From the NCBI RefSeq assembly GCF_029626025.1, contig NZ_JARUBF010000001.1:744001-808000 (forward strand): 64,000 bases of DNA. The letters run 5' to 3'. This stretch comes from Solwaraspora sp. WMMD406 (GTDB lineage: Bacteria; Actinomycetota; Actinomycetes; Mycobacteriales; Micromonosporaceae). Positions within the stretch are counted from its first letter, which is position 1, and each line of letters begins with the position of its first letter. Made by a program: the position numbers and the translations under genes. This document shows positions 28,867 through 42,796 of this stretch, piece after piece. The notes under the pieces are model-generated. The model saw only the letters and a program-made list of their open reading frames with translations, did no database searches and was not told where the DNA came from.

Positions 28867-29631
28867 ATGACTGAACTTCCGGCGAAACTCCGACAGCTGC
28901 GGCTGTCCCATCGCATGAACCAGACTCAGCTCGCCAAATCGGTAGGCGTGTCGAAGTCGCTGATCGCCAGCTTCGAGACAGGTCGGCTGGTGCCGAAGGA
29001 GGACACCGCCAAGGCTCTCGACGAGTTACTAAACTCTGGTGAACAACTCCAGGAGCTGTCCAAGGAGGGCCGAGAAGACCGGCAGCCGTGGCTGCGCTCC
29101 TGGGTCGAGCACGAGCGACGCGCGGCGTTGCTGCGGGCCTGGGAGCCGAACTTGATCCCCGGGTTGCTCCAGACCGAGGCGTACATGCGGCACGTCTTCG
29201 CCGCAGTGCCGTCCAACAGGGTCCGGCTCGAAGAGGTGATCGCGACCCGGCTGGAGCGCCAGCGCGCGGTGCTGGACCGCGATCCCCCGGTGGAACTGGT
29301 GGTCCTGGTCGAGGAGACGGCGTTGCGCCGCGGTCCCCGCGAGGTGATGAAGGACCAACTCGCTTACCTGGTCGACCTCGGCCACCGGCCGAACATCAAG
29401 ATCCGTGCGGTCCCGGAATCGGCTGGCCTGCACGCCGGCCTGGGTGGACCGTTGGCGTTGGCGACCATGAGCGACGGCAGGCGGGTCGGCTACCTGGACG
29501 ACCTGTTGCGTGGTCGCCTCGCCACCACCGCTGGTGACGTCCTCGAACTGGAACTAGTCTGGGAATCCATCAACGAGTTGGCGCTGTCCGCTGACCAGAC
29601 CCGAGACCTGATGTTAGGGATGATCCAGTGA
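28867..29631 (+). CDS. XRE-family regulator with DUF5753 effector domain
   Basis: 254 residues; the SD GGAGG at 28853-28857 fixes the ATG at 28867. Residues 1-65 form a Cro/C1 helix-turn-helix (NQTQLAKSVGVSKSLIASFE). The rest is the actinobacterial DUF5753 domain (AWEPNLIPGLLQTEAYMRHV, LVEETALRRGPREVM, IKIRAVPESAGLHAG). Such proteins are usually followed by a DUF397 gene; known pairs (BldB/WhiJ-like) influence development and antibiotic production. The stop overlaps the DUF397 start (GTGA). Confidence 0.92.
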   Translation: MTELPAKLRQLRLSHRMNQTQLAKSVGVSKSLIASFETGRLVPKEDTAKALDELLNSGEQLQELSKEGREDRQPWLRSWVEHERRAALLRAWEPNLIPGLLQTEAYMRHVFAAVPSNRVRLEEVIATRLERQRAVLDRDPPVELVVLVEETALRRGPREVMKDQLAYLVDLGHRPNIKIRAVPESAGLHAGLGGPLALATMSDGRRVGYLDDLLRGRLATTAGDVLELELVWESINELALSADQTRDLMLGMIQ

Positions 29632-29816
29632 TCAACGAACCAGCATGGCGGAAGTCGTCGCGGTCCAACGGCTCATCCGGCAACTGCGTCGAGGTGGCCG
29701 ACAACCTGCCCGGCCGGGTGCTTGTCCGGGACACCAAGGACCGTGACGGCGGCACCCTGACCTTCGGCCCGGCCGCGTGGCGCTCCTTCGTCGAGTTGGC
29801 CAAGCACCACCACTGA
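29628..29816 (+). CDS. DUF397 protein, partner of the XRE regulator
   Basis: 62 residues from a GTG that overlaps the regulator's stop. Typical DUF397 layout: PAWRKSSRSNGSSGNCVEVA, then VLVRDTKDRDGGTLTF and AWRSFVELAKHHH. These small proteins are thought to modulate their XRE partner, perhaps as antagonists. Two further copies with almost the same core occur at 31448-31636 and 61659-61856. Confidence 0.92.
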   Translation: MINEPAWRKSSRSNGSSGNCVEVADNLPGRVLVRDTKDRDGGTLTFGPAAWRSFVELAKHHH

Positions 29817-31199: not shown

Positions 31200-31326
31200 C
31201 GCCGATGTCAATCAGCCAGCATCGTGTGATCTTGCCTTGTCGGATGATGAGGATTCAATGGCTCTTCAGGCAATTCCAAGATCAGGAATGCCACACCGCC
31301 GCGATGCGCTCGTCCCCCTTTCGTGC

Positions 31327-31451
31327 TGCGTGGTCGCCTCGCCACCACCGCTGGTGACGTCCTCGAACTGGAACTAGTCTGGGAATCAATCAACGAGTTG
31401 GCGCTGTCCGCTGACCAGACCCGAGACCTGATGTCAGGGATGATCGAGTGA
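31327..31451 (+). pseudogene. 3' fragment of an XRE/DUF5753 gene (duplicate)
   Basis: It encodes only the last ~40 residues of DUF5753 (LRGRLATTAGDVLELELVWE onward) and is nearly identical to 29507-29631 with a constant offset of 1820 bp. The DNA-binding domain and most of the effector domain are absent. The stop overlaps the second DUF397 start as in the intact operon. Confidence 0.9.
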
Positions 31452-31636
31452 TCAACGAACCAGCATGGCGGAAGTCGTCGCGGTCGAACGGCTCATCCGG
31501 CAACTGCGTCGAGGTGGCCGACAACCTGCCCGGCCGGGTGCTTGTCCGGGACACCAAGGACCGTGACGGCGGCACCCTGACCTTCGGCCGGTCCGCCTGG
31601 CGCTCCTTCGTCGAACTGGCCAGGCACCACCACTGA
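31448..31636 (+). CDS. DUF397 protein, second copy
   Basis: 62 residues, differing from the copy at 29628 by a few substitutions near the C-terminus (FGRSAWRSFVELARHHH against FGPAAWRSFVELAKHHH). The start GTG is preserved. With its regulator truncated it has lost its promoter and coupled partner; expression would need a new promoter, and none is obvious. Confidence 0.85.
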   Translation: MINEPAWRKSSRSNGSSGNCVEVADNLPGRVLVRDTKDRDGGTLTFGRSAWRSFVELARHHH

Positions 31637-31710: not shown

Positions 31711-31792
31711 GCCCACCCGTACGCCACCCGGCCTGAGGCTACGGGCACGTGCTGATCCGCAGCGACCGCGACGCCTTGGTCATCGGCAGCGG

Positions 31793-32251
31793 ATGGATTT
31801 CACGATGATCGGTCTCGTAGTGAGGGCGCAGGATGATGGTGGCGTGGATGCTCAGTCGTCAGATGCCATAGGCTCGCGCGCGCTGGCTGTAGCCTTGGCG
31901 GTCGAGTTGTCGGACTGCGCCCGGGTGCTCGTCGACCATGCCGGCACGGGGACTCTGATCGACATCGTTCCCTGCCGTGCCGGTACTCGCTCGGTGAGCT
32001 GGGCGGACTTCGGCGATGAGGTCATCGTTCAAGTTGGAACGTATGGCGGCCGCTGGGAACTTGGCGGCGGCGAGCAGGACCTGGCATTTCTGGAGGATCT
32101 TGTCAGGTCGGTGGTGGCCGGTCGGGTCGTGGAGGTGTTCGGGGTACGCCGTTCTCGCGTTGTCGTGGTCCTTACGGACGGCACCAAGGAGACATCCCAC
32201 CCACCGCTCAACCCTCCACTGAGGGATATCAGGGCGAGCCGCCGATGCTGA
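31793..32251 (+). CDS. Hypothetical protein
   Basis: 152 residues, no recognised domain and no membrane segment. The centre (SVSWADFGDEVIVQVGTYGG, then GEQDLAFLEDLVRSVVAGRV and SRVVVVLTDGTKET) has the regular beta-alpha-beta pattern of a small folded protein, which supports coding. A later start (ATG at 31805) is possible. It resembles the size and composition of small immunity-like proteins, but that is only an impression. Confidence 0.45.
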   Translation: MDFTMIGLVVRAQDDGGVDAQSSDAIGSRALAVALAVELSDCARVLVDHAGTGTLIDIVPCRAGTRSVSWADFGDEVIVQVGTYGGRWELGGGEQDLAFLEDLVRSVVAGRVVEVFGVRRSRVVVVLTDGTKETSHPPLNPPLRDIRASRRC

Positions 32252-32296
32252 ACCGACATGCGACCACGAACATCTGCAGGCGCGGCGCAGGACGGG

Positions 32297-33382
32297 TCAG
32301 GCAGACGCGATCAGCGGCGTTGGTAACGCCCGTAGATGAGCGGCGACTGCGTCGGTGAACTCCTGAGTGTCGGCGGTGCCGCCGAGGTCCCGGGTCCGTA
32401 CGCCGGCGGCGAGGCAGGATTCGAACGCGGCGACGAGTTCGGCGGCCGCGGCCGGCTCACCGAGGTGTTCCAGCATCAGCGCGCCGGCCCACATCTGCCC
32501 GACGGGGTTCGCGACGCCCTGACCGGCGATGTCCGGGGCGGAGCCGTGCACCGGCTCGAACATCGACGGGAACACCCGCTCGGGGTTGAGGTTGGCGCTC
32601 GGCGCGATGCCGATCGATCCGGCGGCGGCACCGGCCAGATCAGACAGGATGTCGCCGAACAGGTTGGACGCGACGATCACATCGAACGACGCCGGGTCGC
32701 GGACGAGTTTGGCGGCGAGCGCGTCGACAAGTTCCTTGTCGAGCCGTACGCCGGGCACCTCACGCAGAGTCTGCTCGACGACCTCGTCCCAGAACGGCAT
32801 GGTGTGGATGATGCCGTTCGACTTGGTCGCGGAGGTGACCAGCCCGCGGCGGCGGGCGGCGAGCTCCCCGGCGAACCTGGCGACCCGCTCCACCCCGATG
32901 CGGGTGAATATCGTCTGCTGGACCGCGGCCTCGCGGGCGTCGCCGGGATAGATCCGACCGCCGACGGTGCTGTACTCGCCCTCGACGTTCTCTCGCACGA
33001 TGACGAGATCGATGTCGCCGGCGTCGACCACGCGGGTGGGGACGCTGACCAATGAGCGGACCGGTCGTAGGTTGACGTACTGGTCGAAGTGACGCCGGAT
33101 CGGGATGAGCAGCCCCCACAACGTTTCGGCGTCGGGGATCTCCGGGTCACCGACGGCGCCGAGGAAGATCGCGTGGTGGCCGCGAAGCTGATCGATGCCG
33201 TCGACCGGCATCATCCGGCCGTGCTGACGGAAGTGGGCGGAACCCCAGGGGTACGTTTGCCAGTCGACGGTGTAGCCGTGCCGTGCGGCGATCACGTCGA
33301 GGCAGGTGATCGCCGCCGGCACCACCTCCTGACCGATCCCGTCGCCGGCAATGACGGCGATGTCGTATCGGCGCGACGTCAC
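32297..33382 (-). CDS. Beta-decarboxylating dehydrogenase (tartrate/D-malate dehydrogenase type)
   Basis: 361 residues from a GTG at 33382 that overlaps the gntR stop (GTGA). NAD motif IAVIAGDGIGQEVVPAA; substrate arginines around YVNLRPVRSL; catalytic tyrosine in RENVEGEYST; catalytic lysine in SATKSNGIIHTM; metal aspartates in ASNLFGDILSDLAG; EPVHGSAPDIAGQGVANPVG. The LLIPIRRHFDQY stretch and the substrate loop favour the tartrate dehydrogenase/D-malate group over isopropylmalate or isocitrate dehydrogenases. It oxidises a 2-hydroxy acid with a beta-carboxylate and releases CO2. It is co-transcribed with the GntR regulator. Confidence 0.9.
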   Translation of the reverse strand: MTSRRYDIAVIAGDGIGQEVVPAAITCLDVIAARHGYTVDWQTYPWGSAHFRQHGRMMPVDGIDQLRGHHAIFLGAVGDPEIPDAETLWGLLIPIRRHFDQYVNLRPVRSLVSVPTRVVDAGDIDLVIVRENVEGEYSTVGGRIYPGDAREAAVQQTIFTRIGVERVARFAGELAARRRGLVTSATKSNGIIHTMPFWDEVVEQTLREVPGVRLDKELVDALAAKLVRDPASFDVIVASNLFGDILSDLAGAAAGSIGIAPSANLNPERVFPSMFEPVHGSAPDIAGQGVANPVGQMWAGALMLEHLGEPAAAAELVAAFESCLAAGVRTRDLGGTADTQEFTDAVAAHLRALPTPLIASA

Positions 33383-34062
33383 GCGGTCACCTTCTCTCTC
33401 GTCGGCGTGGTCGGTCGGACGTTGTGCTCGAGGAAGAACGCCTCCAGTTCGGCCGACGCGCCGAGTTTGTGGCGGAGTGCGACCTCGCTGGCGGCCTTGG
33501 CGTCCCGAGCCCGCAAGTGGCCGAGGATTTCCCTGTGTTCCTGCAGCGACACTTCGAACCGATGTGGCCGGAGCCGGAACAGGGCTTGGAATCCGATCTG
33601 CGCGCCTTCCAGATCGGCGAGGGTGTCGCACAGCACCTGGTTGCCGCTGGCCGTGTTGATCAGCCCGTGGAAGGTGCGGTTCATCTCCGCGTAGTTGACC
33701 GTGGACTGACTCGCCGCCGCGGTCTCCATCTCGGTGATCAGCGCATCCAGCTCGTCGAGCTGGCTCTCGGTGAGCAGGTTGGCCGCCAGGCCTGTGGCGA
33801 TGCTCTCCAGGTGACCACGGACGAACAGCGACTCGCGGATCGTCTGTGGGGAAAGCGTGACGACCCGGGCACCGGTGTACGGGATCATTTCCACGAGTCC
33901 GTCGCGTTCCAGCATTCGGATCGCCTCGCGTACCGGGATCTCGCTGACGTCGTACTCGTGCGCGATGCGTCGCAGCACCAGCCGGTCGCCGGGCTGGTAG
34001 TCGCCGTCGATGATCCGGGTACGCAGAGACTGATAGAGCTCGGACGACTTGAGATTGGACAC
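33379..34062 (-). CDS. GntR-family regulator, FCD subfamily
   Basis: 227 residues. N-terminal winged helix (YQSLRTRIIDGDYQPGDRLV, YDVSEIPVREAIRMLERDGL) and an FCD effector domain with the metal/ligand residues in NYAEMNRTFHGLINTASGN and EHREILGHLRARD. FCD regulators usually sense organic acids. The recurrence of one 16-bp motif over its own -10 region and over the -10 regions of the two catabolic operons makes it the likely repressor of the whole island. Confidence 0.92.
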   Translation of the reverse strand: MSNLKSSELYQSLRTRIIDGDYQPGDRLVLRRIAHEYDVSEIPVREAIRMLERDGLVEMIPYTGARVVTLSPQTIRESLFVRGHLESIATGLAANLLTESQLDELDALITEMETAAASQSTVNYAEMNRTFHGLINTASGNQVLCDTLADLEGAQIGFQALFRLRPHRFEVSLQEHREILGHLRARDAKAASEVALRHKLGASAELEAFFLEHNVRPTTPTREKVTA

Positions 34063-34118
34063 TGCGGCCCCTCTCGGTAGCTGGTGGTTATACCGGGATG
34101 GCCGACGAGCACCGGCAC

Positions 34119-34134
34119 GTCAGATACTATACCA
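34119..34134 (+). promoter_or_regulatory. Operator site A (gntR promoter)
   Basis: GTCAGATACTATACCA. On the minus strand it contains TATAGT (34126-34131), a good -10 for gntR, so repressor binding would block its own transcription. It matches sites B and C at 12 of 16 positions. Confidence 0.6.
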
Positions 34135-34351
34135 TTTTTGCCTCGCTCTTCCGAGTCGGATGGTCGCCCGGTCGACGTGTGTGCGGCGTCACTCGTCGAT
34201 GTCCGCGTCGGGCAGGGCGTGCCGGTGGGCGATGTCGGTCCGCACGGACGCGGGGGTCGCCGACGGTCAACGGTCACCGCATGAAGCTGACGCACGGGTG
34301 GATGCCCAGCTCAGAGGGCTTGTGGTGGCGGCGGTATCGGTGACCGACTGG

Positions 34352-34391
34352 TTGCGGGCATGTTGCTGGGCTGCGTAATATCGTATATGAC
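34352..34391 (+). promoter_or_regulatory. Promoter of the hydrolase operon with operator site B
   Basis: -35 TTGCGG (34352-34357) and -10 TAATAT (34376-34381) with an 18-bp spacer. Site B is GTCATATACGATATTA read on the minus strand (34376-34391), exactly over the -10. The SD GAGGAG follows at 34400-34405. Confidence 0.6.
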
Positions 34392-34412
34392 GCCAACCTG
34401 AGGAGCCCACGC

Positions 34413-35345
34413 ATGTGCAATGACGACCTCTCCCCGTACGAGGCCGTGCCGCCCGCGTCGATGATCTCCATCGGCTACCCCGGGCCACGGCCGGATTTCC
34501 TGGCCGACGCTGTTGACCTGCACATCCACAGCGGCCCGGACGCGATCGACCGGATCGGCACCAGCATCGACATCGCCCGCGCGGCCGCTGCGGCCGGCAT
34601 GAAGGCGATCGTGCTCAAAGACCACCTCTTCCCGTCGTACACCAAGGCCGTCCTGACCGATCAGGTCGTCGACGGTCTGCGCGTCTTCGGCGGCATCACG
34701 ATGAACGGCACCGCCGGCGGCATCGCCGTACGCCCGGTGCTGGCCGCGCTCGCCGGCGGTGCCCGGGTCGTGATGTTCCCGACCTTCGACGGAATCCGGT
34801 ACGTCCAGAAGAAGAAGCCGGGCGCGATCCAGCTGCAACACTCGTTCGGCCAGCAGATCACCCCGATCCTCGCCGTCGAGGACGGCAAGGTCCTGCCGCA
34901 CACCGAGGACGTGCTCCAAGCGGTGAGCGACCACCCGCAGGTCATCCTCTCCGCCGGGCACCTCGGCCCGGAGGAAGCGATCCCGATCATGCGTCGGGCG
35001 GCCGAGCTGGGTATCGCCAACAAGGTCATCGAGCACCCCAACTCCAGCGACTGGTGGAGCCTCGACCACTACCAGCAGCTCGTCGACTGCGGCACGACGT
35101 TCAACATGTCCTACAACCCGTACCAGCCGATCATGGGTCGGCGGAACTTCGACGAACTCGTCGAGCTGATCGGCCGGGTCGGGGCGGAGAACTGCAACCT
35201 GATCACCGACGGCGGCCAGCCGTACAACCCGATGCCGGCCATCACCATGAACGTGCTCTGCGAGATGCTGTACTTCCAGGGCGTCGCACTCGACGACATC
35301 GTCGCGATGGCCAAGACCAACCCGGCCCGCCTGCTCGGACTGTGA
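34413..35345 (+). CDS. DUF6282-like amidohydrolase-fold metallohydrolase
   Basis: 310 residues; SD GAGGAG fixes the ATG at 34413. The metal-binding HxH is in VDLHIHSGPDAIDR; further likely ligands are KDHLFPS, SAGHLGPEEA and IEHPNSSDWW, arranged along a TIM-barrel as in the amidohydrolase/PHP superfamily. Closest to proteins annotated as DUF6282 (my recollection). The reaction is unknown; lactone, amide or ester hydrolysis, or decarboxylation, is possible. It is the first gene of a five-gene operon ending at the second dehydrogenase. Confidence 0.75.
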   Translation: MCNDDLSPYEAVPPASMISIGYPGPRPDFLADAVDLHIHSGPDAIDRIGTSIDIARAAAAAGMKAIVLKDHLFPSYTKAVLTDQVVDGLRVFGGITMNGTAGGIAVRPVLAALAGGARVVMFPTFDGIRYVQKKKPGAIQLQHSFGQQITPILAVEDGKVLPHTEDVLQAVSDHPQVILSAGHLGPEEAIPIMRRAAELGIANKVIEHPNSSDWWSLDHYQQLVDCGTTFNMSYNPYQPIMGRRNFDELVELIGRVGAENCNLITDGGQPYNPMPAITMNVLCEMLYFQGVALDDIVAMAKTNPARLLGL

Positions 35346-35357
35346 CGGGTCGACCTC

Positions 35358-36056
35358 ATGGATCTCGACGTTATCCGTACGAAGTTGGCCGGTATCGGCG
35401 TCGGCACGGTCGTGTACGTGCTGCAGCACGCCGGCCTCTACCACTGCTTCCTGCCGGTCCGGCCGGTCACCCCGGGTGCCCCCGGGTTCATCGGGGTGGC
35501 CCGGACGCTACGCACCGAGCCGATGCGGGAGGACGTGCTCGCCGTACGGCGGGCCGAACCCAAGTCCAGCGACCCGCACCGGATCGCCATCGACGAGATA
35601 TCGGCCGGCGAGGTACTGGTGGTGGCCGCCCGCGGCGAACTCGGCGCGGCCGTCCTCGGCGACCTGCTCGCCGCCCGGATCGCCAACCGAGGTGGTGCCG
35701 GCGTGGTCACCGACGGCTGCGTTCGTGACCTCCCCGGCATCCGCGACGTGGGGCTGCCGGTCTTCGCCGCCGGCGCGCACGCGGCGACGTTCCCGACCCG
35801 CCACGTCGCGATCGAGGTGAACGTCCCGGTGGGCTGCGCCGGCGTGTTGATCAACCCGGGTGACCTGTTGATCGGCGACGACGAGGGCGTCGCGGTGGTG
35901 CCAGCCGAGCGGGTGGACGACATCGTCGACGCTGCCGTCGAGCAGGAGTCGGTCGACGCCTTCTCGTTGTCCAAGATCCGCGAAGGCGTACCGCTCGCGG
36001 AGGCGTACCCCCTGTCACCGGCGCTGCGCGTCGAATACGAACGGCGATCATCATGA
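35358..36056 (+). CDS. RraA/HMG-aldolase family protein
   Basis: 232 residues. The family active-site signature DGCVRDLPGIRDVGLPVFAA contains the Arg-Asp pair used by class II pyruvate aldolases such as 4-hydroxy-4-methyl-2-oxoglutarate/4-carboxy-4-hydroxy-2-oxoadipate aldolase. NPGDLLIGDDEGVAVVPAER is the conserved C-terminal block. It most likely cleaves a 4-hydroxy-2-oxo acid to pyruvate plus a second oxo acid, or decarboxylates oxaloacetate. Its stop overlaps the next start (ATGA). Confidence 0.87.
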   Translation: MDLDVIRTKLAGIGVGTVVYVLQHAGLYHCFLPVRPVTPGAPGFIGVARTLRTEPMREDVLAVRRAEPKSSDPHRIAIDEISAGEVLVVAARGELGAAVLGDLLAARIANRGGAGVVTDGCVRDLPGIRDVGLPVFAAGAHAATFPTRHVAIEVNVPVGCAGVLINPGDLLIGDDEGVAVVPAERVDDIVDAAVEQESVDAFSLSKIREGVPLAEAYPLSPALRVEYERRSS

Positions 36057-36898
36057 CCCAGCTCGCGTCCTACCGGCTCGACGGACGGCCGGGGGTGGCG
36101 ATCGTCGACGGCGACGCCCTGCGGCCGCTTCCCGGCGTCACCTCGATGCTCGACGTCCTCGACTGGCCGGCGAGTCGACTGACCGCCGCTGCTTCGGCGG
36201 ACCCGGTCGCGATGGCCGACGTCGAACTCGTCGCACCCGTCCCCACCCCGTCGCGCAACATCTACTGCGTCGGCTGGAACTACCTCGCCCACTTCGAGGA
36301 GGGCCGGCACTCCCGTCCGGACGTGCAGCTGCCCAAACGGCCCACGATCTTCTCCAAGGCCCCGGGCACCGTCGTCGGACCGTACGACGACATCCCGGCG
36401 CACCCCGGGCTGACCGGTCAGCTTGACTGGGAAGTCGAGGTCGCGGTCGTCATCGGCACCGGAGGCACCGACATCGCGGAGGACTCCGCCCTGCGGCACG
36501 TCTTCGGCTACACGGTCGCCAACGACGTCACCGCCCGCAACATGCAGGCCGAGTACGGCGGGCAGTGGCTCAAGGGCAAGAGCCTGGACCAGACCTGCCC
36601 GATGGGTCCGGTGCTGGTCACCGCCGATGAGGTGGGCGACCCCCAGTCGCTCGACATCTCCTGCCGGGTCAACGGCCGTACGGTTCAGTCGGGCAACACC
36701 CGGCAGATGATCTTCCCGATCGCCCGGATCATCGCCGAGCTCTCGACCGGGCTGACCCTGTTGCCCGGAGACATCGTGCTGACCGGCACCCCGGAGGGCG
36801 TCGGCCACCAGCGCCGCCCCCCGGAGTACCTCTACCAGGGCGACGTGCTCGAAAGCGAGATCTCAGGTATCGGGGCCCTGCGTAACACGATCGTCTGA
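36053..36898 (+). CDS. Fumarylacetoacetate hydrolase (FAH) family protein
   Basis: 281 residues. NIYCVGWNYLAHFEEG, PTIFSKAPGTVVGP, then the metal ligands E-x-E in LDWEVEVAVVIG and Asp in YTVANDVTARNMQ; GKSLDQTCPMGPVLV and LLPGDIVLTGTPEGVG close the fold. All metal ligands are present. Family members hydrolyse acylpyruvates, decarboxylate oxaloacetate or 4-oxalocrotonate-like acids, or hydrate 2-oxopent-4-enoates; which applies here is not readable. Translationally coupled to the aldolase gene. Confidence 0.9.
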   Translation: MTQLASYRLDGRPGVAIVDGDALRPLPGVTSMLDVLDWPASRLTAAASADPVAMADVELVAPVPTPSRNIYCVGWNYLAHFEEGRHSRPDVQLPKRPTIFSKAPGTVVGPYDDIPAHPGLTGQLDWEVEVAVVIGTGGTDIAEDSALRHVFGYTVANDVTARNMQAEYGGQWLKGKSLDQTCPMGPVLVTADEVGDPQSLDISCRVNGRTVQSGNTRQMIFPIARIIAELSTGLTLLPGDIVLTGTPEGVGHQRRPPEYLYQGDVLESEISGIGALRNTIV

Positions 36899-36919
36899 GC
36901 TGATCGCGGACAGCCGGAC

Positions 36920-37825
36920 ATGACCCTGCCGATCGAAGTGGTGGCGTTGCTGGCCGCGTTCGCGTACGCGAGCAGCCAGGTGGTCAGCAAGTTGGCCACC
37001 CGGCACGGCGACGTGATGAGCGGCCTCGTGGTCAGCCTCGTCGCGGGCGCCGCCGCGCTGGGTGTGCTCTGCCTGGCCACCGTCGACTCGTGGCGGATCC
37101 CGGCATCGGCGGTGGTGCTGTTCGTCCTGGCGGGTGTCGCCGGTGCGGGGCTGGGTCGGCTGCTGATGATGCGAGCGGTTCGTGACGCCGGAGCGTCGGT
37201 GGCCTCACCGGTGTTGTCCAGCACCCAGCCGGTGGCGGCGACCGGGTTCGCCGTCGCGTTCCTCGGCGAACGGCCGACCGCCGGCCGGCTGTCGATGTTG
37301 GTCCTGGTGGTGGCCGGGTTGTGGCTCAGCGCCCGGGGCGGATCGGCCAACCGGGGGATCGCCGTCCTGCACACCGGGCCGGTCGATCTGGTCCGGCTGC
37401 TGATCTGGCCGGTGGCGGCTGGTGCGGCCCTGGCTACCTCCGACTTGCTGCGCAAGGCGGCACTGGACATCCACCCGGACGCGGCGCTCGGCGCCTTCCT
37501 CGGTGTCGCCACGGCGACTCTCGGGTGGCTACTGGTGACGGCGGTACGCGAACCGGGCGCGCTGCGACGCAGACCACCGGCGTACGGCTGGTTCGCGCTG
37601 CACGGCGTGCTGACCGCGCTCGCCGCGTTCCTGTTGTTTCTCGCGCTGCGGGTCGGGGATCTGTCGTTGGTCGCGCCGATCATCGCCGCGCAACCGGTGT
37701 TCGTGGTGATGATCGGCGCGGTCGTGCTGCGGAACCTGGAAGCGGTACGGACCGGCACCGTCGTCGGGGCGCTGATCGTGTTCGGCGGGATCGCCACGTC
37801 GTCGCTGATTGACGGCACCGGCTGA
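36920..37825 (+). CDS. DMT/EamA-family membrane transporter
   Basis: 301 residues in about ten hydrophobic helices arranged as two EamA halves (IEVVALLAAFAYASSQVVSK ... and GWFALHGVLTALAAFLLFLA ...). DMT proteins move metabolites, often amino or organic acids, in either direction. In this operon it may export an end product or overflow intermediate, or import substrate at low affinity. The stop codon lies at the start of the 21-bp repeat array. Confidence 0.85.
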   Translation: MTLPIEVVALLAAFAYASSQVVSKLATRHGDVMSGLVVSLVAGAAALGVLCLATVDSWRIPASAVVLFVLAGVAGAGLGRLLMMRAVRDAGASVASPVLSSTQPVAATGFAVAFLGERPTAGRLSMLVLVVAGLWLSARGGSANRGIAVLHTGPVDLVRLLIWPVAAGAALATSDLLRKAALDIHPDAALGAFLGVATATLGWLLVTAVREPGALRRRPPAYGWFALHGVLTALAAFLLFLALRVGDLSLVAPIIAAQPVFVVMIGAVVLRNLEAVRTGTVVGALIVFGGIATSSLIDGTG

Positions 37826-37892
37826 GCGACCGAGGGCACCGGCTGAGCGACCCAGGGCACCGGCTGAGCGACCCAGGGCACCGGCTGAGCGA
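37824..37892. repeat. 21-bp tandem repeat (about 3.3 copies) after the DMT gene
   Basis: Units at 37824-37844, 37845-37865 and 37866-37886 plus a 6-bp partial; the first differs by one base. Each contains GGGCACCGGCTGAGCGAC. The last codons and the stop of the DMT gene are part of the pattern (GGCACCGGCTGA), so the array grew out of the gene's 3' end. It lies between two genes of the operon. Confidence 0.95.
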
Positions 37893-37948
37893 GCACACCG
37901 GCGGTGGGAACCCGACCGGCGGTGAAGGCGGTAAGGAAGGAGAGGACC

Positions 37949-38989
37949 ATGACCTACGAGATATGCGTGATCGGGGGCGACGGCATCGGCCCGGAGGTGA
38001 CCGACTGCGCCGAACAGGTGCTGCGGGCCGCCGCAGGCATGCCCGGCGGACCGACTCTGCGGATCCGTCACGCACCGGCCGGGCTGGACTGCTACCGGCG
38101 TACCGGTGACCCACTGCCGGCCGAGACCCTGGCCGCGGCACGGTCCGCCGACGGCGTGCTGCTCGGTGCGCTCGACGTCGCCGGGGTGCCGACCGGGGTG
38201 CCGAATCCGCTGCGGAACCTGCGCCGAGGGCTGGAGTTGGTGGCCAGTCTGCGACCGTCGCGCAGCTTCCCGGGGGTGCCGGGAGCGAAGCCGGATGTCG
38301 ACTTGCTGATCGTGCGGGAGATAACCGAAGGGTTGTACTCCGGTCGGGAACGGCCGCTGGACGAGGAACTCGGTGCCGTCGCCGAACGGGTGGTCACCCG
38401 CCGAGCGTCGCTGCGTACGGCCGAGATCGCTTTCGAGCGGGCACGGTCACGGCGTCGCTCGGTGACCGCCGCGCACAAGATCAGCGCGTTGCGGCTGACC
38501 GACTCGGTGTTCCTCGACGCGGTGGCCGAGGTCGCCGACCGCTACCCGGACGTGGCGTACCAGACCCGCAACGTCGATGCCTGCGCGCTGGATCTGGTGC
38601 GTCATCCCGAGCAGTTCGACGTGATCGTGACGACCAACGCGTTCGGGGACATACTGTCCGATGTGGCCGCCGGGGTGACCGGCGGTATCGGGCTCGCCGC
38701 GTCTGGCTGTGTGGGCAACCGTTGGTCGTACTTCGAACCGGCGCACGGCACCGCGCCGCGGCGGGCCGGCCAGGCCCGGGCGAATCCGGTCGCGACGGTG
38801 CTGAGCGCGGCCATGCTGGTTCGCCAGCTCGGGGCGGCCGAGGTAGCGGAGCGGATCGAGCTGGCGGTCGCGGCGGTGCTCGCCGACGGACCGCGTACCA
38901 GTGACCTCGGTGGGTCGGCCGGCAGCCGGGAGATGACCGACGCGATCGTGGCCGCACTGGGCGTCGTAGCAGGTACACAGGGTCGCTGA
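37949..38989 (+). CDS. Second beta-decarboxylating dehydrogenase (isopropylmalate/isocitrate/tartrate family)
   Basis: 346 residues; the SD AAGGAGAG fixes the ATG at 37949. [20 protein letters not shown], arginines in [16 protein letters not shown], catalytic tyrosine in [10 protein letters not shown], lysine in [13 protein letters not shown], metal aspartates in [15 protein letters not shown], and [20 protein letters not shown]. Catalytic residues are complete, but the substrate loops differ from the paralogue at 32297-33382, so it probably acts on another step or substrate. It ends the first catabolic operon, 71 bp before the transporter operon. Confidence 0.88.
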
Positions 38990-39025
38990 CCTGGGCCTAG
39001 ATTCAATTTTTACGAGCTGGTGTCA

Positions 39026-39058
39026 TTGAGATGACGGTTACGGTCATATACGATACGA
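39026..39058 (+). promoter_or_regulatory. Transporter-operon promoter with operator site C
   Basis: -35 TTGAGA (39026-39031), 17-bp spacer, -10 TACGAT (39049-39054), then ATG 6 nt later with no SD: a well-formed leaderless promoter. Site C, GTCATATACGATACGA (39043-39058), covers the -10 and shares 14 of 16 bases with site B. Confidence 0.7.
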
Positions 39059-39060
39059 AC

Positions 39061-39858
39061 ATGAGTGACAAGCTGGAAGGTCGATCCCTCGGCAAGACCT
39101 TCACCAGGCGGGACAGCTCGTTGACCGTCCTGGAGGATGTCTCCATCACGATCCGGCCCGGCGAGTTCGTCAGCATCATCGGTGCCAGCGGGTGCGGCAA
39201 GACGACGCTGCTGCGCATGCTGCACGGCCTCATCGCGCCGACCACCGGCGAAGTACTCATCGACGGTGAGCGGATCGACGGGCCGACCCGAAAGCGGGGC
39301 TTCGTCCTGCAGCAAGCGAGCTTGCTGCCGTGGCGGACGGTCCTGGACAACGTTACCTTCGGAATGGAACTCGACCGGATACCCGGTGCCCAGGCCAAAG
39401 CCCGCGCACGGGACCTCATCAAGCTGGTGGGACTCACCGGCTTCGAATCGCACTATCCCTCGGAAATCTCCGGTGGTATGCAGCAGCGGGTCAACATCGC
39501 CCGCGCGCTGGCCATCGAACCCGACATCCTGTTCATGGACGAGCCGTTCGCGGCCGTCGACGCCCAGACCCGCGAGGTCATGCAGGCAGAGCTGCTACGG
39601 ATCTGGGACATCGACCGCAAGACCGTGGTGTTCGTAACGCACCAACTCGATGAAGCCGTGTACCTGTCCGACCGGGTGATCGTCCTCGGTGCCCGGCCCG
39701 GCCGGGTCCGCGAAATCCTGACGATCGACCTTCCTCGCCCCCGTACGTTGGCGGTCAAGCGTTCACACGAATTCGCCGACTACGTCGACCGGGTCTGGAA
39801 GCTCATCGAGAACGAAGTGGTCTCCGGCGACGAAAGCCCTTCCGCGGCATCCGCCTAG
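39061..39858 (+). CDS. ABC importer ATP-binding protein (SsuB/TauB/NrtD type)
   Basis: 265 residues from the ATG at 39061 (MSDKLEGRSLGKTFTRRDSS). An in-frame ATG at 39031 lies inside the promoter and is rejected. Walker A GASGCGKTTLLRML, Q-loop VLQQASLLPWRT, signature EISGGMQQRVNIARAL, Walker B ILFMDEPFAAVD, switch VTHQLDEA. The TLPW-like Q-loop is characteristic of nitrate/sulfonate/taurine-type importers. It energises the two permeases downstream. Confidence 0.93.
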   Translation: MSDKLEGRSLGKTFTRRDSSLTVLEDVSITIRPGEFVSIIGASGCGKTTLLRMLHGLIAPTTGEVLIDGERIDGPTRKRGFVLQQASLLPWRTVLDNVTFGMELDRIPGAQAKARARDLIKLVGLTGFESHYPSEISGGMQQRVNIARALAIEPDILFMDEPFAAVDAQTREVMQAELLRIWDIDRKTVVFVTHQLDEAVYLSDRVIVLGARPGRVREILTIDLPRPRTLAVKRSHEFADYVDRVWKLIENEVVSGDESPSAASA

Positions 39859-39925
39859 CCATCCGACTACTCCGGCGTCACGCACCGTCCCCAGAACGTT
39901 CGACTGACTGAAAAGGAACAGTGGG

Positions 39926-41035
39926 ATGGATAAAGACACGTCTACTCAAGTGTGCCCGGGTAACCCCACCAACCGACGGCGACGACTCGGCTGGCGTGCC
40001 GCCACCGCCGCCCTGCTCAGCACAGCGTTGCTCCTGTCCGCGTGCGGCGGCGGCGGCGACAGCGGCTCGATCGCCGAGGAAGGCCGCGACGCGGTCCTCG
40101 AATCAGCCAAGGCACGGGACAAGACCTGGGTCGTCACCACCAGCGGACCCGGCGTCGTGGTCGACGGCAAGAGCCTCGACTTCACGGTCGCCAAGATGCC
40201 GACGGTACGGGCGGCCGAGGCGATGAAGGCCGACGGTTGGAACGTCGAGGCCCGCTTCATCGAGGCGAACGAGAGCGTCGTCCAGTCACTCGTCCAAGGT
40301 GAGTCCGACGCGATCAACGTAGCGCTACCGACAGTGCTCGCCGCCGTCGCCGGCGGGGTCCCGTTGCGGGTGTTCGGCGGCGGCTCCCGCTTCGGGTTCA
40401 CCATCGTCGGCCGCACGGACATCACCGGCCCGGAAGACCTCGACGGCAAGCGGATCGCCTATCAGGCACCGATCTCGGCCGGCACCCTCGCCGCCCGGCT
40501 ATGGGTGCTCGACGCCGACGTCGAACCGCAGTTCATCACCATGACCGGTTCCGCCGTACGGGTCGAAGCGCTGGTCGCCGGCGAACTCGACGCCACCGCG
40601 GTCTCCATTGGCTTCGACGAGGAAGTCACCGAGCAGGGCGAGCCGGGCGAGTTCGACGTCCTCTACCGCCCCCTGGACGAGTACCCGTTCCTGCTCGACA
40701 CCGTCCTGACGTACAACGAAGCCAGCTTCGACGACGAGACCAGAGTGTTCTTGGAGGAGTTCCAGCGGTACCACGCCGAGTCGGTACGGGAACTCGCCGA
40801 CAACCCGGCCGTACTCGACGAATGGTTGGCCTACCACGAGGTGACGACCTCGCCGAGTGCCGAGGTGCTGCTGTCACTGTTCTTCGACGACATGGGCGTC
40901 GCCGCCGAGACGGTCGACCAGCAGGTCGACCTCATGATCGAAACCGAACAGATCGAACCCGACGACGGCTTCCCGTCCGGATCGGAGCTGATCGACTCGT
41001 CGATCTGGCAGGTCGCCGAATCGATGATCGAGTAG
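39926..41035 (+). CDS. ABC importer substrate-binding lipoprotein (NMT1/SsuA-like)
   Basis: 369 residues. A lipoprotein signal peptide with lipobox LLLSACGGG (Cys near residue 40) is followed by an SsuA/NMT1-like bilobed fold (TISGPGVVV...KSLDFTVAKMPTVRAAEAM; SVVQSLVQGESDAINVALP; DGKRIAYQAPISAGTLAARL). Binds the imported substrate outside the membrane. The ligand is unknown; relatives bind sulfonates, nitrate, aromatic acids or hydroxymethylpyrimidine. An internal acidic stretch (TEQGEPGEFDVLYRPLDEY) is unremarkable. Confidence 0.9.
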   Translation: MDKDTSTQVCPGNPTNRRRRLGWRAATAALLSTALLLSACGGGGDSGSIAEEGRDAVLESAKARDKTWVVTTSGPGVVVDGKSLDFTVAKMPTVRAAEAMKADGWNVEARFIEANESVVQSLVQGESDAINVALPTVLAAVAGGVPLRVFGGGSRFGFTIVGRTDITGPEDLDGKRIAYQAPISAGTLAARLWVLDADVEPQFITMTGSAVRVEALVAGELDATAVSIGFDEEVTEQGEPGEFDVLYRPLDEYPFLLDTVLTYNEASFDDETRVFLEEFQRYHAESVRELADNPAVLDEWLAYHEVTTSPSAEVLLSLFFDDMGVAAETVDQQVDLMIETEQIEPDDGFPSGSELIDSSIWQVAESMIE

Positions 41036-41083
41036 TCCGCCACCTGCCCGCACCGCGTTGCCGGAAAGGAGAGCGAGCCGCAG

Positions 41084-41956
41084 ATGACCGCGACGAGCTC
41101 CATCAGCGCCACATCGTCGACGGCGTCGCAGACGCCGGGGCCGCCGCGCCAGCGGCGGCCCCGGCGGGGACCGACACGCGACAACGGCCCACACGGCACG
41201 ACCCGCGCCGTCAAGGTGCTCCGGATCGTCAGCCCGCTCGTGCTGCTGCTCTTCTGGCAGATCGCGGCGCAGGTGAGCGACTCGATCCTGTTCCCGACGC
41301 CGACCGCGATCGTCGCCGCCGCCTGGGACCTGGCCGTGTCGGGCGAGCTCGGACCAGCGCTCTGGCGCAGCAACCAGGCACTGCTGATCGGCACGTCGGT
41401 CGCCCTTGCCGTGGGCGTGCCGATCGGAATCGCGCTAGGCCGATCGCCACTGCTCAACCGGATCTTCGGTGTGTACATCGACATCGACCTGGCCACCCCG
41501 ACGATCGCGTTGATCCCGATCGTCATCATCGTGTTCGGGCTGGGTCTGACGGCGCGGTCCGTCGTCGTCTTCCTCTTCGCGTTCGCTCTGGTCGTCTCCC
41601 TGGTACGCACGGGAGCCCGGACCGTCGACGCCAACCTGATCGACATGGCGGCGGCGTTCGCGCCCACCCGATGGCAACTGTGGGTCAAGGTGATCCTGCC
41701 GGGTCTGCTGCCGGCCCTCGGCGGCGCGTTCCGGGTAGCGGTGTCGCGGGGCGTGGTCGGGATGGTGATCGTCGAACTGACGCTCACCACCGTCGGGATC
41801 GGCGGACTGGTCATGGAGGCCCGGAGCTTCTTCCAAGCCGACGTGGTCTACGCCGGGGTGGCCGTGGTGGTCGCCGAAGGACTGCTGTTGATGGCGCTCG
41901 GCCGGTGGGTCGAACGCAAGATCGCCCCGCAGGGGCTCTACGGCACGGGAGGCTAG
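41084..41956 (+). CDS. ABC importer permease 1
   Basis: 290 residues. A basic, Pro-rich N-terminal tail of ~45 residues precedes six helices; the coupling (EAA-type) loop is near NLIDMAAAFAPTRWQLWVKV with the following ILPGLLPALGGAF. Typical SsuC-like BPD permease. It starts 48 bp after the binding protein, with SD GGAAAGGAGAG. Confidence 0.92.
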   Translation: MTATSSISATSSTASQTPGPPRQRRPRRGPTRDNGPHGTTRAVKVLRIVSPLVLLLFWQIAAQVSDSILFPTPTAIVAAAWDLAVSGELGPALWRSNQALLIGTSVALAVGVPIGIALGRSPLLNRIFGVYIDIDLATPTIALIPIVIIVFGLGLTARSVVVFLFAFALVVSLVRTGARTVDANLIDMAAAFAPTRWQLWVKVILPGLLPALGGAFRVAVSRGVVGMVIVELTLTTVGIGGLVMEARSFFQADVVYAGVAVVVAEGLLLMALGRWVERKIAPQGLYGTGG

Positions 41957-41959
41957 CCC

Positions 41960-42766
41960 ATGGTCTCGACACCGACCCGCACCACACCGACAAAGGTGAC
42001 GACATCCCGGGTGGCCGCGCTGTCGACGAAGTTCCCGTGGGCGACAGCGGCATCCTTGGCGGTGTTCCTGGCGCTCTGGGAGATCTTCGGCCGGCTCGCC
42101 GACTACCGAGCCCTGCCACCGGTCTCCGAGATCTACCGCACCTGGCTGTCGTTCTTCCAGGACGGCGTCCTCTTCGCCGTCCTGTGGGAAAGCGCCAAGA
42201 CGTTCGGCATGGGCATCGGACTGGCGATCGGTGCGGCCGTCGTGGTGGCGGTGCTGATGAGCCTTTCCCGTACCGTCGAACAGGTGATCGCGCCGTACAT
42301 CGACGCCGGCATGTCGGTGCCGATCACCGCGACCATTCCGATCCTGATGATGGTGTTCGGGCTCGGGGCCGCGACCCGGGTCGCCGTCGTCTTCCTCTAC
42401 TCCTTCTTCATCATCGTGGTCTCCATGCAGGCCGGTCTGAAGAAGGTCGACCCGGCCCACGAACAGCTCGCACACGCCTACGCCGCGTCACCGATGCAGA
42501 CAATCATGAAGATCACTCTGCCGTCGGCGCTACCACTGGCGATCACCGGGATCCGGCTCGGCGTGAGCCGTGGTATCCGGGGCATGGTCAACGCGGAGGT
42601 GATCATCTCGACGGCCGGGATCGGCTGGCTGCTGATGCGGTCGTCGCGCGAGTTCGACATCGCCGGCGTCTGGGCGGTGACCGGCACCATCATCGCTGCG
42701 GCTCTGATCGTCATGGGCCTGGTGACCCTGGTGGAGCGCGCTCTCGTCCGGGGCGGCGATCGCTGA
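41960..42766 (+). CDS. ABC importer permease 2
   Basis: 268 residues, six helices; the coupling loop is HEQLAHAYAASPMQTIMKIT followed by LPSALPLAITGIRLG. It begins 3 bp after permease 1, and the two different permeases probably form a heterodimer. This departs from the usual homodimeric SsuC arrangement. Confidence 0.92.
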   Translation: MVSTPTRTTPTKVTTSRVAALSTKFPWATAASLAVFLALWEIFGRLADYRALPPVSEIYRTWLSFFQDGVLFAVLWESAKTFGMGIGLAIGAAVVVAVLMSLSRTVEQVIAPYIDAGMSVPITATIPILMMVFGLGAATRVAVVFLYSFFIIVVSMQAGLKKVDPAHEQLAHAYAASPMQTIMKITLPSALPLAITGIRLGVSRGIRGMVNAEVIISTAGIGWLLMRSSREFDIAGVWAVTGTIIAAALIVMGLVTLVERALVRGGDR

Positions 42767-42796
42767 TGCGGGTTTGAGACGACCGGCCCCGGGAAC

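Follow-up and report, generated by a model that had tools for sequence, protein, structure and literature searches.

The enzyme families considered here are all known. The described enzymes closest to them include the tartrate dehydrogenase / D-malate decarboxylase type, homoisocitrate dehydrogenase and the 4-hydroxy-4-methyl-2-oxoglutarate/4-carboxy-4-hydroxy-2-oxoadipate (HMG/CHA) aldolase of Pseudomonas, in which Arg123 and Asp124 are catalytic residues (enolate/metal) (PMC5065237). In this study we have analysed a window of 64,000 nucleotides from Solwaraspora sp. WMMD406, positions 744,001-808,000 of contig NZ_JARUBF010000001.1 (C1) in a genome of 7.16 Mb and three contigs, where such enzymes are encoded together with a DUF6282 protein, a GntR regulator and an ATP-binding cassette (ABC) importer in a block of 11 genes at 32,297-42,766. 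Neither this combination nor the role of DUF6282 in it is described in the open-access PubMed Central (PMC) papers searched: no paper was found that joins RraA with fumarylacetoacetate hydrolase (FAH), or these two with tartrate dehydrogenase, and the name DUF6282 is absent from them. The reading of the block as a co-regulated catabolic island is well supported in outline: the genes share operator-like sites and partly overlap, the insertion is absent in six of six congeners, catalytic residues are retained and RraA and FAH form a module elsewhere. A preliminary description of this DNA had proposed a catabolic island for a small polycarboxylic or hydroxy/oxo acid. The outline of that proposal stands on the shared sites, the insertion and the RraA-FAH module, while the substrate and the order of steps are inferred.

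All 11 genes are open frames, and their products match the expected families in profile searches, so the gene set claimed earlier does sit together. It consists of one regulator, five enzymes and two transport systems in two divergent runs. The leftward run, on the minus strand, begins with a FadR-type regulator with GntR and FCD domains (33379..34062; PF00392 4.4e-18, PF07729 5.8e-24) and continues with a tartrate-dehydrogenase-like gene (32297..33382), which probably starts at GTG 33382 and overlaps gntR by 4 nt (GTGA). The rightward run, on the plus strand, holds the genes for DUF6282 (34413..35345), an RraA-type class II aldolase/decarboxylase (35358..36056), an FAH-family hydrolase/decarboxylase (36053..36898; PF01557 6e-72) overlapping the RraA gene by 4 nt (ATGA), an EamA/DMT permease (36920..37825; PF00892 3.9e-23) and a second Iso_dh-family dehydrogenase (37949..38989). 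It then enters the ABC block, with an ATPase (39031..39858; PF00005 2.2e-33), a solute-binding lipoprotein (39926..41035) and two BPD_transp_1 permeases, the first at 41084..41956 (PF00528 1.9e-17) and the second, the last gene of the island, at 41960..42766 (PF00528 5e-24). A 21-bp unit repeated 3.8 times at 37814-37892 begins in the final EamA codons and continues into the space between that gene and the one for the second dehydrogenase.

The suggestion that these genes lie under one operator type is borne out by three perfect copies of a 13-base pattern, GTCAKATACKATA. The first copy (GTCAGATACTATA, 34119..34131, plus strand) lies upstream of gntR, the second (GTCATATACGATA, 34379..34391, minus strand) in front of the DUF6282 gene, and the third (39043..39055, plus strand) heads the ABC block. 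There is no further perfect match in the 64 kb, and the only perfect matches among 190 loci are in stretches taken from this very place. The second and third sites are identical over the whole 13-mer, GTCATATACGATA. A 13-mer common to both was reached in none of 2000 dinucleotide shuffles, in which the longest shared word was 12 nt (five shuffles), with the caveat that these same sites served to define the motif and that the two shuffled regions were chosen with the match already known. Bearing on the weight of this match, 1,627 13-mers recur in the window, three of them with at least eight A/T. When up to three mismatches are allowed, the window holds 7 matches versus 7.08 expected by chance, and two earlier, looser patterns also stayed near chance (26 versus 25.1 and 28 versus 20.8); a search of the strain's own genome with the first 12-mer pattern returned one exact site. 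An inverted-repeat scan found no palindrome at the sites, and their TATA-rich cores may also be -10 boxes. The GntR protein may bind these sites and repress through them. With an ATPase start at 39031 the third site lies inside the gene; perhaps the start is ATG 39061, 6 nt after the site.

The block is a genomic island. When the window was compared by blastn with 19.5-kb stretches from six congeners (L170-L175), nothing in these stretches aligned to 31,711-42,769, and homology resumed at 42,770-42,791, right after the second ABC permease gene; all six carry the Rieske gene of the right border at 83-86% identity. Nor was DUF6282 detected in the six congeners of the family sample. On the left side, colinear homology extends to about 29.87 kb in four of the six (L171, L172, L174 and L175). 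It ends at 26.5 kb in L170, beyond which the XRE region alone matches, in inverted orientation and at 68% identity, and at 23.3 kb in L173, save for a 63-nt piece near 26.5 kb. The four colinear congeners carry about 3.6, 5.6, 13 and 10.6 kb of DNA at this place, and this variation in length indicates a variable site. The interval from about 29.9 to 42.77 kb, between the XRE/DUF5753 and the Rieske/DUF2231 genes, is occupied by DNA of varying length among the congeners, as in an integration hot spot. At its left end, a 300-nt direct repeat (29504-29803 and 31324-31623, 96% identical) flanks a glucose/sorbosone-dehydrogenase gene; one copy is present at this place in four of the six congeners, and the second copy holds a small DUF397-like frame.

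Within the island, the RraA protein belongs to the PRK08245 subfamily (212.4 bits versus a cut-off of 208), and alignment to 3noj shows that it keeps the equivalents of Arg123 and Asp124 of the Pseudomonas HMG/CHA aldolase. Its scores fall below the cut-offs for the HMG/CHA aldolases LigK/GalC (PRK09262, 100.4 versus 179; ligK_PcmE, 93.6 versus 304.5), and an assignment as CHA aldolase was rejected on these cut-offs together with a loop considered below. The FAH protein aligns to 8sky, 6iym and 8gsr and retains the NY..H..E and metal-ligand motifs. Our genome searches covered sampled genomes, with part of the candidates scored in each (for example 5 of 15), and absences in them are accordingly not exhaustive; in the search of 200 genomes of the bacterial family they returned one other match for FAH at E<=1e-75 and nine others for RraA at E<=1e-30. 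Six of these nine RraA neighbourhoods were fetched, and FAH is found in the stretch in four of them, GntR in five. The FAH and RraA proteins are fused in L183 (L183:9140-10600, PRK12764, 738.6 bits versus 444), where the RraA half also passes PRK08245. A PRK08245-type RraA gene adjoins the FAH gene in L184, followed by a DHDPS-family gene with MmgE/PrpD and TctA genes near. The other two loci with FAH are L181 and L182. The nearest FAH relative in the family (L180, 49%) has as neighbours an NMT1-type binding protein, an ABC ATPase, a permease, GntR, RidA and an Amidohydro_2 protein. Neither island protein reaches the PRK12764 fusion cut-off of 444 (RraA 184.4, FAH 112.6 bits), the window having separate genes. 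A PRK08245-type RraA and its FAH partner are one module in relatives, a coupling that matters in that two poorly assigned proteins there act together.

The FAH protein also raises the possibility of a sugar-acid-type pathway, with FAH resembling a 2,4-diketo-3-deoxy-sugar-acid hydrolase and the tartrate-dehydrogenase-like enzyme acting on a tartrate-like intermediate. Its best-scoring model is indeed 2,4-didehydro-3-deoxy-L-rhamnonate hydrolase (NF053535), it aligns to 8gsr, and on a Rhizobium plasmid a 40.7% RraA relative is accompanied by an annotated dihydroxy-acid dehydratase, a mandelate racemase family protein, an aldehyde dehydrogenase and a 5-dehydro-4-deoxyglucarate dehydratase. However, the score of 210.5 bits is far below the cut-off of 500, and the island has no sugar dehydrogenase or dehydratase. 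We consider such a pathway improbable.

Two island proteins match the Iso_dh family (1.9e-91 and 5.5e-86). The first appears to be a tartrate/D-malate-dehydrogenase-like enzyme, an activity predicted from TIGR02089 (tartrate dehydrogenase, 504.7 bits versus 470.4) and from its best solved relative, 3flk (3e-110); it scores below the PRK08194 cut-off (473.8 versus 501). The second lies nearest to homoisocitrate dehydrogenase but reaches no equivalog cut-off, missing the homoisocitrate dehydrogenase models AksF2 (313.2 versus 540) and LEU3_arch (299.5 versus 409.8). Assignments of this protein as LeuB or as isocitrate dehydrogenase were rejected in the same manner. In an alignment to 3asj, the second dehydrogenase has Arg at the place of Arg85 of the Thermus homoisocitrate dehydrogenase, a residue that we take to bind the distal carboxylate, and the first has Ile there. 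The retained Arg suggests that the substrate of the second enzyme bears an extra carboxylate. This is in line with plasmid neighbourhoods of its relatives (3 of 713 tblastn records inspected): a 43.1% relative on a Paracoccus plasmid lies beside tcuA/tcuB (tricarballylate) and a 4-oxalomesaconate tautomerase gene, and on a Tsukamurella plasmid an FAH gene is 1.4 kb away from a relative with 45.5% identity. The third, a 41.3% relative, is beside an aconitase-family gene. In the 200 family genomes the second dehydrogenase had no other match at E<=1e-75. Elsewhere in the strain's own genome, another Iso_dh match at C1:5602956-5603984 is 46% identical to the first dehydrogenase and has one TGA in the aligned stretch.

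The DUF6282 protein clearly belongs to its family (PF19799, 159.1 bits versus a gathering cut-off of 26.8) and is predicted to be a metal-dependent hydrolase with an amidohydrolase-type fold. An AlphaFold2 model built from 42 sequences has a mean predicted local distance difference test (pLDDT) score of 91.3. Its top Foldseek rows (E 1e-6 to 1e-7) are phosphotriesterase (PTE)-like lactonases, with a dihydroorotase at rank 6 and TatD and dipeptidases lower. The 50 rows listed have E from 1e-5 to 1e-7, query TM-scores of 0.41-0.56, root-mean-square deviations of about 6-12 A and 10-17% identity, and so weak a superposition gives the fold class of DUF6282 and not its reaction. Three sequence matches to solved structures were dismissed (best E 0.089). 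Residues D35, H37, H39, K69, H71, H183, H208 and D266 are invariant in the 42 sequences. At positions 231 and 235, Asn occurs only in the window protein and L089, with Glu in 35 and Cys in 23 of the 42. With the strain's own genome counted each time, DUF6282 occurs in 52 of the 200 genomes of the family, where the best match in another genome is about 36% identical. The class sample gave 3 of 384 genomes at E<=1e-34 and the phylum sample 2 of 396 at E<=1e-40. A single-sequence scan of genome contigs returned no match; an alignment scan gave at least 180 confirmed relatives, the best 80 of which were all compared with the island proteins. Among the matches listed, the closest (L089, 54-55% identity) lies on a 4.6-kb metagenome contig that also encodes an ABC ATPase (51% identical to that of the window), a luciferase-like oxidoreductase and a protein of 176 aa that matches no Pfam family.

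The neighbourhoods of DUF6282 were examined with a 10-kb reach in 124 loci, the window's own left out, with profiles from which these loci had been left out. The loci, many of them from one bacterial family, cannot count as independent, and the Iso_dh profile was built from two sequences. Matches within 10 kb and within 4 kb numbered 10 and 9 for FAH, 12 and 10 for RraA, 36 and 27 for GntR, and 49 and 35 for the ABC ATPase. The single-sequence EamA profile, a weak test, found no match within 10 kb. The commonest neighbour cluster, present within 2.5 kb in 28 of 125 loci, is an HpcH/HpaI aldolase to judge from a scanned member in L165, clusters being named from a few scanned members, and on the annotated plasmids L033 and L034 the neighbour of DUF6282 is named aldolase/citrate lyase. 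Here, too, a pyruvate-forming family stands beside DUF6282. The island gives this widespread, uncharacterised family a concrete biochemical setting.

In four relatives from the same bacterial family as the window (L042, L055, L066 and L070), the DUF6282 gene lies beside a PIG-L gene, with RraA within 4 kb and NMT1-type ABC genes near. The PIG-L protein of L066 matches the 4-oxalmesaconate hydratase GalB (5cgz, 1.2e-53), which suggests that these cassettes import and break down a precursor of oxalomesaconate, such as pyrone dicarboxylate, and the L066 RraA is CHA-aldolase-like, just below the cut-off (172.4 versus 179). The island might degrade an aromatic- or pyrone-derived tricarboxylate of the lower gallate or protocatechuate-4,5 type, with DUF6282 as a pyrone lactonase. 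A Streptomyces plasmid cluster, in which relatives of RraA and FAH occur together with a hydroxylase, a VOC protein and RidA, also points this way. Against it, the 11 island proteins include neither a PIG-L protein nor an oxygenase, the island RraA is far under the CHA models in the scores given above, and the two Iso_dh enzymes would be left unexplained. Such a route seems unlikely to us.

The importer presents a further choice. An ATPase, an NMT1-type binding protein and two permeases make up the composition known from taurine, sulfonate and nitrate ABC importers. The binding protein, with a lipobox read by eye, is a divergent member of the NMT1/TauA/SsuA type with weak Phosphonate-bd and NMT1 matches (PF12974 2e-6, PF09084 8e-6). 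It meets no characterised specificity model and falls under the cut-offs for TauA (24.5 versus 490) and SsuA (21 versus 163.5). Among 396 phylum genomes, the own one included, it had four weak matches outside the own genome at E<=1e-8, none better than 3.5e-11, and the plasmid tblastn gave one weak record. The importer might then serve an unrelated nutrient, such as a sulfonate, nitrate or a thiamine precursor, and adjoin a short acid-degrading operon by chance. Its family, its own operator-like site at 39043 and the other enzymes that accompany the nearest relatives of the binding protein would fit this explanation; however, the ABC block and the enzyme operon carry the same 13-base site, and 32 of the 124 loci have an ABC ATPase gene no more than 4 kb from DUF6282, by a profile that is blind to importer class. 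We judge a chance association unlikely.

Several observations nevertheless weigh against a single catabolic island. None of the other genomes sampled was seen to carry the whole set. Both FAH and RraA lie within 4 kb of DUF6282 in none of the 124 other loci, the nine FAH and ten RraA loci being disjoint. The set was also found in none of the 11 plasmid regions inspected (5 of 45 records for DUF6282, 3 of 905 for RraA and the three for the second dehydrogenase). The nearest DUF6282 relative (L089) adjoins a luciferase-like oxidoreductase, 8 of the 49 ABC ATPase matches lie 8-10 kb from DUF6282, and in two of the four RraA loci with FAH (L181 and L182) the FAH gene is about 9-10 kb away. An Iso_dh gene stands beside DUF6282 in one of the 124 loci, L096, where it passes the LeuB cut-off (357.4 versus 353.2). 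The island RraA is without the Gly144-Thr145-x-Lys147 loop of HMG/CHA aldolases, the aligned loop being different and gapped. The sole relative of the binding protein with the same gene order (L189, 27%) adjoins 3-hydroxyisobutyrate-dehydrogenase-like and creatinase/M24 genes and is without the island enzymes, and this class of importer also transports sulfonates, nitrate and thiamine precursors. The expectation of the preliminary description that these families would co-occur therefore holds for pairs, since DUF6282 recurs with GntR, with the ABC ATPase and, separately, with RraA or FAH, but not for the full set. Its statement that no described pathway has exactly this set likewise agrees with the papers and genomes searched, with the qualification that pieces of the set recur elsewhere. 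As a separate observation, on the marine Dehalococcoidia contig L096 (L096:186-1079) the DUF6282 frame is broken into two parts, with the LeuB-like dehydrogenase gene and a cupin-like gene directly after it.

Taking both sides together, we give about an even chance to the outline of a laterally acquired, substrate-inducible catabolic island that imports a small acid and degrades it to central metabolites, and a much lower one to any single named substrate. In the simplest chain that employs every enzyme, each step of which is conjectural, the FadR-type GntR protein would act through GTCAKATACKATA to repress three operons: its own, that of the enzymes and that of the ABC importer. The ABC importer would take up a small anionic compound, with EamA as an accessory permease or an exporter. 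This compound may be a cyclic or hydroxylated polycarboxylate, in which DUF6282 would open a lactone or cyclic amide bond of the ring. The homoisocitrate-dehydrogenase-like enzyme would then oxidatively decarboxylate a 2-hydroxy acid having an extra carboxylate, the 2-oxo acid so formed would be cleaved or decarboxylated by RraA and FAH together, giving pyruvate and a small acid, and the tartrate/D-malate-dehydrogenase-like enzyme could recover a C4 malate-type by-product. We also speculate, tentatively and with more doubt than belief, that the DUF6282 proteins form a new family of hydrolases acting on cyclic polycarboxylates (lactones or pyrones), whose ring they open to supply pyruvate-yielding RraA, FAH and HpcH enzymes in bacteria and archaea. 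On this view the island would be an undescribed pathway in which DUF6282 is joined to two beta-decarboxylating dehydrogenases, and its substrate would be a cyclic tricarboxylate on which growth is not yet known. The island could let several protein families be assigned together.

Compared with known systems, the island is familiar in its parts and differs in their arrangement. Its first dehydrogenase is over the family cut-off of tartrate dehydrogenase / D-malate decarboxylase (TIGR02089; 3flk), but unlike the known enzyme it is encoded among DUF6282, RraA and FAH genes. The importer shares its gene composition with taurine, sulfonate and nitrate importers, yet its binding protein stays below the TauA and SsuA cut-offs. 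DUF6282 resembles PTE-like lactonases and dihydroorotases in its predicted (beta/alpha)8-type fold, its HxH motif and its late Asp motif, and differs from them in an invariant Lys-x-His after strand 2 and in Thr, not Lys, after strand 4. The DUF6282-PIG-L-RraA cassettes have DUF6282 (about 30-32% identical to that of the window), RraA and NMT1-type importer genes in common with the island, and two of the four also have GntR no more than 4 kb away; the cassettes carry PIG-L (GalB-like in L066) and a CHA-like RraA (L066), whereas the window has FAH, a PRK08245-type RraA and the dehydrogenases. The RraA subfamily and the coupling to an FAH partner are shared with the PRK12764-type fusion of L183 and the FAH-RraA-DHDPS run of L184, from which the window is set apart by two separate genes in reversed order and by the addition of DUF6282, two Iso_dh enzymes and an ABC importer.

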